Source of the DNA: Methylobacter sp.
GTDB taxonomy: Bacteria; Pseudomonadota; Gammaproteobacteria; Methylococcales; Methylomonadaceae
NCBI RefSeq assembly: GCF_030680395.1
Contig: NZ_JAUXVR010000037.1
Span: forward strand, 1 to 46,006
Direction: 5' to 3'
Length of the DNA stretch: 46,006 nt
Shown: in pieces, positions 9,494 to 17,364 of the stretch
Layout: every line of letters starts with the position of its first letter
Numbering within the stretch: the stretch's first letter is position 1
Made by a program: the position numbers and the translations under genes
The notes under the pieces: generated by a model
Database searches by the model: none
Told to the model about the DNA's origin: nothing
What the model saw: the letters and a program-made list of their open reading frames with translations, nothing else

Positions 9494-10087
9494 ATGGGAA
9501 ACCAGGTTGAACGCGAACATTTAAAGTCTGATCTTATCCTGCCTTGGGTCATTGTAGGCATGATGCTTGCGATGCTGGCAGCTTATATTATTATCTGTCA
9601 TATCTTGAACGAACAGCTGAAACAGCCGTTGCCCGAAGCTCAGCGGGTGCTGCTCAGAACGATATTTTATGTTATTGCCATTGTTACTTTTCCGCTGACC
9701 AACCTGATCCGGCACATTCAGCTTCGGTTGAATCAGACCATGCCAAGTTCCTACGCATCCCATGGAACAGTTGCCGACGACTGCACGGATGCAGGAGGTA
9801 CGACTCCATGGATGGGGGAGGTAGAGCAACGCATGGAGCAGTTGCCGAGAGCAATGCAGGGAGCAATTGCCGAGGCAAAAATCCGCTATCTGGTGACTAT
9901 CATCGTCTCCATGTCGTTGATTGAAGTTATCGGCATTTTTGGCCTGGTCATGTTTGTACTGGGCGATGGTTTCAACACCCTACATATATTCACCGGCCTA
10001 TCGGCGCTGGGGCTGTTTTTATATCGACCCAAAACCGACGAATATTCCGAAATAATTGACGCAATCTCCGCACAAAAACATGAATAA
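9494..10087 (+). CDS. Membrane protein with four predicted helices and an in-frame repeat insertion
   Basis: A 197-residue product not assigned to a named family. The ATG at 9494 has a CAGGAAAC ribosome-binding site and gives a sensible N-terminus; the open frame extends upstream but without a start signal. Hydrophobic segments lie at about residues 17-37, 53-70, 130-150 and 157-175, with IRHIQLRLNQTMP after the second. A hydrophilic stretch of about 43 residues (about 86-128) between helices two and three is encoded by a dispersed repeat (61/62 identical to non-coding DNA at 17218-17279) with partial internal duplications. The segment is rich in E, Q, A, G and R and looks foreign to the protein. 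The 3' end overlaps the Fe-S oxidoreductase gene by 8 bases, so the pair is probably co-translated; a membrane partner role is an inference. Confidence 0.75.
   Translation: MGNQVEREHLKSDLILPWVIVGMMLAMLAAYIIICHILNEQLKQPLPEAQRVLLRTIFYVIAIVTFPLTNLIRHIQLRLNQTMPSSYASHGTVADDCTDAGGTTPWMGEVEQRMEQLPRAMQGAIAEAKIRYLVTIIVSMSLIEVIGIFGLVMFVLGDGFNTLHIFTGLSALGLFLYRPKTDEYSEIIDAISAQKHE
9761..9873 (+). repeat. Dispersed repeat (family B) inside a coding sequence
   Basis: Bases 9791-9852 match the reverse complement of 17218-17279 at 61 of 62 positions, with one T/G difference. Around this core the motif CATGGARCAGTTGCCGA occurs at 9761-9777 and 9832-9848, and a third version, CAGGGAGCAATTGCCGA, at 9857-9873. 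Units two and three are exactly 25 bases apart, so the element has grown by duplication. It is fully translated without a stop in the frame of the host gene. Confidence 0.85.
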
Positions 10088-11297
10088 TTTATTAGCCGAC
10101 GCTGATCTTTGCGTTAAATGCGGCTTATGTCTGCCGCACTGCCCCACCTACAATAAAACCCAAAACGAGAACGAATCGCCTCGCGGCCGCATCGCGTTGA
10201 TTCAAGCTTGGGCAGGCAGGCACCTGGAAACATCAAAAAATCTGGTTGAGCATATCGACAACTGTTTGTTATGCCGCTCCTGTGAGCGGGTTTGTCCTGC
10301 GGTAGTGCCTTATGGACGGCTGGTTAACGATTTTCGTGAACAAATAAAGGGCGAACGGGATACTACGCTGGCAGTGTCGCTGCTGAAAAGAGTATCCCAT
10401 AATAAAACCGCCGGTCGTCTGGCACAGTCGGGTTTAAAGCTCTATCAAACCACGGCCTTGCAAAAAACGGCGCGATTCCTAAAATTACCTAAATTATTAA
10501 GACTCGACAAAATTGATCGCCTATTACCCGGGTATCATGAGCCGACACCTTTGGCGTCGCATTACCCGGCAACTACCGAAGCGAGGGGCAATGTAGGCTT
10601 GTTTATAGGCTGCATGGGGTCATTGCTGGACCATGAGACCGTCAATGCGGCAATCGAGGTGTTAACCGCGGCGGGATTTAATGTATCCATACCCAAACAG
10701 CAGACCTGTTGCGGCGCGCTGGATTTGCATGCCGGCGATAATGAAATGTCCGGGCAGTTGGCTGCAACCAATTGCAGCGCTTTTGCCGATAAAAACCTGG
10801 ATGCGATAGTGACTATCGCCAGCGGTTGCGGCAGTCAGATGCAGGAATACCAGCAGGCTGAGTTTGCAGGAAAGGTAGTTGATATCAGTCAGTTTTTAAT
10901 CAAATCAGGTTGCGATCTCAGCGACCGACTGATGCCATTAGCCGCCTCGGTGTGCCTGCATACGCCGTGCTCGTTAAAAAACGTCATGCGCGAGGAGCAA
11001 GGGGCCTTAAAGCTGCTGCAACAAATCCCTGGCATTAAAATAACCTCACTACCTGCGGCGATTCAATGCTGCGGTTCGGCGGGCAGTTATATGCTGGATC
11101 ATCCGCAAATGGCGCAAGCGTTGTTAAGTGACTTATTGGGAGCAGCTTTAGAGCATCCCCCAGAGTATCTGGTTAGCTCCAACATAGGCTGCGCATTGCA
11201 TATCTCGGCGGGATTAAGAGAACGGGGAGTAGCGTTGGAAGTACTTCATCCGATTACTTTAATTGCGCGGCAATTAAAATGTGAAGAATCTGACTAA
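10080..11297 (+). CDS. GlcF-like (Fe-S)-binding oxidoreductase subunit
   Basis: A 405-residue protein of the glycolate oxidase iron-sulfur subunit / heterodisulfide-reductase CCG family. It carries two 4Fe-4S motifs, CVKCGLCLPHCP near residue 11 and CLLCRSCERVCP near residue 63, followed by two CCG domains (TCCGALDLHAG and QCCGSAGSY). The ATG at 10080 is preferred to the upstream in-frame start because it puts the first cluster at the usual place and overlaps the previous gene by 8 bases. GlcD and GlcE flavoprotein partners are not in the window. It could equally serve a lactate or other hydroxyacid dehydrogenase, so no gene symbol is given. Confidence 0.85.
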   Translation: MNNLLADADLCVKCGLCLPHCPTYNKTQNENESPRGRIALIQAWAGRHLETSKNLVEHIDNCLLCRSCERVCPAVVPYGRLVNDFREQIKGERDTTLAVSLLKRVSHNKTAGRLAQSGLKLYQTTALQKTARFLKLPKLLRLDKIDRLLPGYHEPTPLASHYPATTEARGNVGLFIGCMGSLLDHETVNAAIEVLTAAGFNVSIPKQQTCCGALDLHAGDNEMSGQLAATNCSAFADKNLDAIVTIASGCGSQMQEYQQAEFAGKVVDISQFLIKSGCDLSDRLMPLAASVCLHTPCSLKNVMREEQGALKLLQQIPGIKITSLPAAIQCCGSAGSYMLDHPQMAQALLSDLLGAALEHPPEYLVSSNIGCALHISAGLRERGVALEVLHPITLIARQLKCEESD

Positions 11298-17217: not shown

Positions 17218-17279
17218 GCTCTCGGCAACTGCTCCCTGCGTTGCTCTACCTCCCCCATCCATGGAGTCGTACCTCCTGC
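17218..17279. repeat. Dispersed repeat (family B), non-coding copy
   Basis: This 62-base block is the reverse complement of 9791-9852 with a single mismatch. It contains ACTGCTCCC (17228-17236) and CCATCCATGGAG (17255-17266), which also occur in cobS with nearly the same spacing. Here it sits between the rhodanese start and the methyltransferase relic and is not translated. Confidence 0.85.
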
Positions 17280-17364
17280 GTCCATGCGTCAAGGCTATTA
17301 GGTTACGGGCACGAAGCGCATCACTGTGATAAAACTATCAGCATCACTCTACGTTCAGTTCATT

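Follow-up and report, generated by a model that had tools for sequence, protein, structure and literature searches.

A dispersed 48-bp two-hairpin repeat, probably mobile, lies in frame within conserved genes of Methylobacter

Palindromic elements inserted in frame in protein-coding genes are best known from Rickettsia, and intragenic REPs are reported in some free-living bacteria in the main text of PMC3733652. The Rickettsia palindromic elements (RPEs) are described as being about 100–150 bp long (PMC2229807, PMC3767692), with a CGTC tag at one end in the case of those of R. conorii (PMC3733652). In that same text, the intragenic GTAG/CGTC REPs of free-living bacteria are reported from open reading frames, including helicase and tRNA synthetase genes, where they encode 20 to more than 30 residues; no word beginning with "Methylo" occurs in the main text of that paper. 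Among open-licence PubMed Central texts, we found no paper containing short strings of the repeat described below or of its peptide, and a prior description elsewhere is possible. Here, we describe a non-autonomous repeat that has very probably moved, in frame, into a membrane-protein gene of Methylobacter sp.

The window analysed, i.e. the whole stretch of 46,006 nucleotides of contig NZ_JAUXVR010000037.1, contains an open frame (9494..10087, forward strand) that encodes a conserved helical membrane protein, upstream of a gene for a GlcF-like iron-sulfur protein (10080..11297, forward strand; NF008434, 197 bits for a curated cut-off of 333). As proposed in a preliminary description made from the sequence alone, the host frame and its downstream part are intact: the frame comprises 197 codons (9494-10084) and its stop codon (10085-10087) is overlapped by the next gene, whose ATG starts at 10080. 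A Pfam search of the host protein gave nothing over the cut-off and gene-family searches yielded no name. The protein found matches in 39 of 61 genomes; in two of these, G012 and G015, only the insert segment is matched, so that host homologues are present in 37 of the 61. Among the 14 named loci, 13 belong to Methylobacter and the remaining one to a Methylococcales symbiont, which places the organism near Methylobacter. The structure predicted for the window protein was poor, with a mean pLDDT of 54.8, a pTM of 0.28 and residues 79-104 among the segments below 50, and no Rfam match was obtained for window positions 9700-9900 at E ≤ 1. In one relative (G019, locus L035), the translated DNA upstream of the host gene contains several copies of a short tandem repeat, FAFRLSP.

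The insertion in this gene is 96 bp long (9778-9873) and corresponds to 32 residues. Its basic unit, 48 bp or 16 codons with two hairpins, consists of an A half of 23 nt (hairpin CTGCAT-GG-ATGCAG) followed by a B half of 25 nt (hairpin GCAAC...GTTGC), and the window copy is ordered as A, complete A'B, B, which amounts to one 48-bp unit nested within another. All on the forward strand, the A half of the outer unit occupies 9778..9800 (nhmmer match L002:1496-1518), the nested A'B unit 9801..9848 (L002:1519-1566; R1 match at 9798-9850, 81 bits) and the B half of the outer unit 9849..9873 (L002:1566-1591). The left flank of the insertion, in the host linker (9753..9777, forward strand), is likely a decayed and older B half-unit (B-half profile, 21.1 bits). 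The insertion is thus shorter than the segment of about 43 residues given in the preliminary description. That description had also matched 9791-9852 to the reverse complement of non-coding DNA at 17218-17279; we found the same 61 of 62 identical bases and an extended match of 67 of 70 nt. This second copy (17218..17287, reverse strand; A'B at 17222-17269, with an A half before it) is indeed intergenic, upstream of a rhodanese gene.

The consensus unit starts with CGAC, ends with GCCGA and is open in five of its six frames, both alone and in tandem. The sequence GTAG was invariant (23 out of the 23 aligned units) and lies within the unit, one base ahead of hairpin B. Direct and nested composites were seen, with sizes of 96-192 bp, and tandem 48-bp arrays also exist. 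Both hairpins covary strongly. Across 82 distinct aligned copies (from 87 matches in 66 loci of the own genome and nine loci of relatives), 11 of the 13 base pairs were changed on both sides and 96.1% of cells were paired, a result favoured by the fitting of this alignment to the covariance model, versus 14-52% in slid controls; the covariation score was 0.305 versus 0.155 for shuffled alignments, none of the 500 shuffles being as high. An independent alignment of 23 units exhibited changes on both sides in three of the 13 pairs, and a paired change in hairpin A distinguishes the rep copy from its counterpart in the relative G021.

The repeat is dispersed far beyond chance in its own genome, as had been suspected, with at least 43 BLAST matches (E ≤ 0.01; scoring covered 40 of the 91 first-look candidates) and at least 134 covariance-model matches (E ≤ 1; scoring covered 150 of 3155). 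Seventy loci with matches down to about 44 bits were fetched, leaving out C12:45508, C40:50726 and weaker matches; 65 of them gave 74 distinct sites, and of the remaining five, four were overlaps and L120 gave no hit with the profile. The preliminary description had proposed a count of in-frame coding copies: according to open frames and a codon-usage score, a rough rule under which the internal copy L010 may be spurious and the copies in the homology-supported genes L008 and L103 were scored as lying outside genes, 15 of the 74 sites are in frame inside genes, 12 are terminal (8 near the start and 4 near the end) and 47 lie outside predicted genes. Among the 15 internal copies, ten use the sense strand and five the opposite one. 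Single complete copies measured 48 bp in all 11 cases inside genes, a result which is partly circular, as an open frame is required for a copy to count as internal; the gap sizes in relatives given below are free of this circularity. Those outside genes (n = 32) measured 48 bp in 15 cases, 47 bp in 16 and 69 bp in one, and those at gene ends (n = 7) 48 bp in three and 47 bp in four. Copies of 47 bp were thus found outside genes or at gene ends; one of them (L016:1283-1329) seems to break or shift the frame of an ORF, presumably that of an IS21-type transposase. A common peptide motif or shared protein domain, arising without DNA movement, is refuted as a source of these copies and keeps practically no probability, as the same DNA is read in different frames and on different strands across hosts and the identity at the DNA level reaches non-coding copies.

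Two further composites were observed. Four copies in the own genome (L096-L099) have near-identical flanks, TTGCA...GGAGC, and the unit may therefore have entered another hairpin repeat, the composite spreading afterwards. The second composite, GGGGCG.GAGCA...GGAGCGGA, was found at L018, L026, L104 and L112, outside genes and in two predicted reading frames.

Sixteen in-frame host genes were picked and searched for in six relatives, and homologues of every gene were found in one relative or more. Fourteen matched NCBIfam families (FlgJ, FadB-like, LeuS, CobJ/CbiJ, AcnB, AmgK, Rep, HypF, MurB, prolyl aminopeptidase, FliH, GlmU, DapA and RpoS), the FadB-like, AmgK, Rep and FliH matches falling below the curated cut-off. 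The remaining two, L089 and L104, had no NCBIfam hit at 1e-20; we take them to be methyltransferase-like and LtaS-like, respectively. For 10 of the 16 genes, the site was empty in at least one relative, with an exact gap of 48, 96, 102 or 192 bp. The gap was 48 bp in five relatives for LeuS, CobJ/CbiJ and prolyl aminopeptidase, in four for Rep and in three for L089 (drawn as 18+30); 96 bp in four relatives for the FadB-like gene and AcnB, and in one for RpoS, with 48 bp missing in three more; 102 bp in two relatives for HypF; and 192 bp in two for AmgK. In the rpoS gene of G021, the outer unit stands by itself, and in that of the own genome an inner 48 bp separates the outer halves. The FlgJ copy was present in both aligned relatives, and L104, MurB, GlmU, FliH and DapA gave more complex alignments, several with repeats in the relatives as well. 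Judged by sequence comparison, these empty sites show that the repeat is mobile. They also extend to 10 further genes the earlier suggestion that new protein segments arise without loss of the host frame.

The linker was compared across an alignment of 19 sequences, comprising the window protein itself, 13 of the 14 named loci (L074, an insert match only, was excluded) and five further homologues. In this linker, the window protein has 32 extra residues and L061 has 16, i.e. one unit, and no full unit was present in the other 17 of the 19. Absence from orthologues, proposed earlier as a check, is thus the rule, and the five homologues from beyond the named loci lack the segment, whose presence in distant genera would have spoken against an insertion. 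Most of the aligned Methylobacter linkers exceed those of other genera by some residues; the linker of L044, also from Methylobacter, is of the short form. When the B-half profile was applied to the 17 linkers, L062, L063 and L067 scored 15.9, 14.3 and 11.4 bits, respectively, at the same offset as the window half-unit, versus a null (6,666 windows) in which 99.9% of scores were at or below 6.3 bits and the 99% level was -1.3. Weaker scores were obtained for L064 (3.4), L069 (2.7), L066 (-1.1), L065 (-4.4) and, at a different offset, L070 (-3.9); the remaining nine linkers scored no higher than -14. Since B-like sequence occurs at the same offset in several homologues, repeat DNA seems to have entered this loop on more than one occasion. 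In another Methylobacter subgroup (L068, L071 and L072), the same linker contains unrelated residues, FDR..QDSYR, which we considered as a second dispersed repeat and rejected: the corresponding DNA pattern was found once in G022, once in G020 and once, with one mismatch, in G000, and was absent from G005, and is therefore not a dispersed repeat in these four genomes.

These B-like linkers are what would be expected if the window copy had grown from a half-unit by local slippage, or by template switching or exchange with other copies, rather than by transposition; the linker of L061, which is exactly B-A-B, and the tandem 48-bp arrays elsewhere point the same way. Because the window insertion abuts the older half-unit, part of it may stem from local expansion. 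As a general account, however, we consider such expansion unlikely, given the exact insertions, such as those in leuS, acnB, cobJ/cbiJ and rpoS, at sites where no half-unit is visible by eye.

Complete left ends are preceded by A at 46 of 52 sites, or at 35 of 41 once nested and ACGAA contexts are set aside, and complete right ends are followed by G at 53 of 66. Insertion thus prefers A^G. In nine of the 52 cases, the left flank terminates in ACGAA, which is part of another dispersed repeat, CACGAAG; an inverted repeat of this type, with 27-nt arms, is present in the window at 2929-2996. No target duplication was found at the exact gaps in relatives. A one-base duplication does not account for the terminal A of the unit, as the unit still ends in A at five of the six sites with a different left base. 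We propose that the 48-bp unit enters cleanly, mostly between A and G, without target duplication. The unit itself has A^G sites in its middle and at its 3' junction, through which further units can come to lie within it or directly after it, in 48-bp steps; this very probably explains the 96-bp window copy. As both the length and the frames of the unit are tolerated by genes, insertions in loops, linkers and protein ends would survive as 16, 32 or more added residues. The six left bases other than A and the four 47-bp copies at gene ends are exceptions to this explanation.

The repeat behaves like RPEs and intragenic REPs but fits neither family in the features compared. Like the palindromic elements of Wolbachia and those of Rickettsia, to the latter of which the preliminary description had likened it, it is a short hairpin repeat found both between genes and in frame in conserved genes, with no obvious gene loss. 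This likeness holds for behaviour and not for membership: here, a two-hairpin unit of 48 bp rather than 100–150 bp forms composites and nests in 48-bp steps, targets A^G, lacks a CGTC end tag and is carried by free-living Gammaproteobacteria. With the intragenic REPs it shares copies in ORFs of free-living bacteria and a GTAG beside a hairpin (main text of PMC3733652); in GTAG REPs, GTAG is unpaired at one end of a 20-40 nt hairpin and inverted (head-head, tail-tail) dimers prevail, whereas here two dissimilar hairpins follow each other in direct order. The features of MITEs, namely terminal inverted repeats and target-site duplication, were not observed, as the ends differ (CGAC and CCGA) and the gaps are exact.

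That the unit is nevertheless a GTAG-tagged REP, mobilised by a genome-encoded Y1 transposase as in RAYT/REP systems, is doubtful. The constant GTAG ahead of hairpin B, the absence of target duplication and the 10 Y1_Tnp matches in the own genome agree with it, but the internal position of GTAG and the direct or nested composites do not, and the repeat-flanked RAYT that it predicts was not found: none of the 39 Y1_Tnp loci fetched (10 from the own genome, 19 from the genus and 10 from other families of the order, one locus per relative) has a copy of the repeat in the surrounding 1.5 kb or so. Flanking by the repeat would not be required of an enzyme that acts in trans.

IS200/IS605 elements have hairpins near both ends and insert cleanly beside a short fixed sequence, without target duplication. 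The 48-bp repeat shares these terminal hairpins, short target and lack of duplication, and this combination suggests an element that is recognised by its hairpins and is perhaps single-stranded. In none of the 39 loci did these ends enclose a Y1 transposase, as they would in an autonomous copy. A lagging-strand mechanism might have given an orientation bias, and none was seen relative to GC skew in G019 (24:26 versus 23:19, p = 0.54; 92 copies, with 12 on contig C3 left out and a noisy sampled skew). We suggest only tentatively that the repeat moves as hairpin-recognised, probably single-stranded DNA through an enzyme acting in trans.

The inserted peptides are presumably translated within their host proteins, and selfish tolerance by the host, not benefit, is the likeliest reason for their persistence. 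The alternative of a useful module, whose hairpin is kept for RNA regulation or whose peptide is beneficial, appears improbable. The strong hairpin covariation could be read in its favour, as could the FlgJ copy (L021, L137 and L144), identical at 48 of 48 positions in three species with flanks 81-87% identical, a single site picked after the fact. The Rep copy, by comparison, is identical at 45 of 48 positions, no better than its own flanks; moreover, the host genes are unrelated, several frames and both strands are used, and most sites lie outside predicted genes.

Within the genus, matches were found in 23 of the 23 genomes searched (4 to at least 98 each), and in 8 of 14 other genomes of the family; G019, which matches Methylobacter tundripaludum SV96, had at least 141 at E ≤ 1e-5. 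In a scan of the class, the repeat was present, patchily, in at least 36 of 185 Gammaproteobacteria genomes, the own genome included. Besides the own locus, 11 class loci were inspected: in a distant gammaproteobacterium, three tandem 48-bp units lie in frame in a 649-codon ORF (L258:1503-1646), apparently between what we take to be receiver and HPt-like parts, and the copies of L259, L261 and L264 lie within open frames that may be coding. Five Pseudoalteromonas plasmid records of 0.8-0.9 Mb carry the repeat, with the two copies inspected outside listed genes, as do three viral contigs, where it is apparently intergenic although short open frames span it; it was not found in the phage records searched. 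The repeat may be a class-wide gammaproteobacterial element whose two-hairpin unit is built to be gene-neutral (its length is divisible by three, five of its frames are open and it brings A^G targets for nesting). It would then act as a movable 16-residue module in core genes and be mobilised by a trans-acting enzyme other than a repeat-flanked RAYT; this broader reading is possible rather than established.

Here, such in-frame insertions occur in a free-living methanotroph with a large genome, in leuS, acnB, rpoS, rep, hypF and other genes, with exact before and after sites in sister species. As a cultured relative, M. tundripaludum SV96, carries the repeat, it would be possible to test whether the peptides are translated and tolerated, which enzyme mobilises the unit without target duplication, and how frequently protein loops acquire new sequence from mobile DNA.
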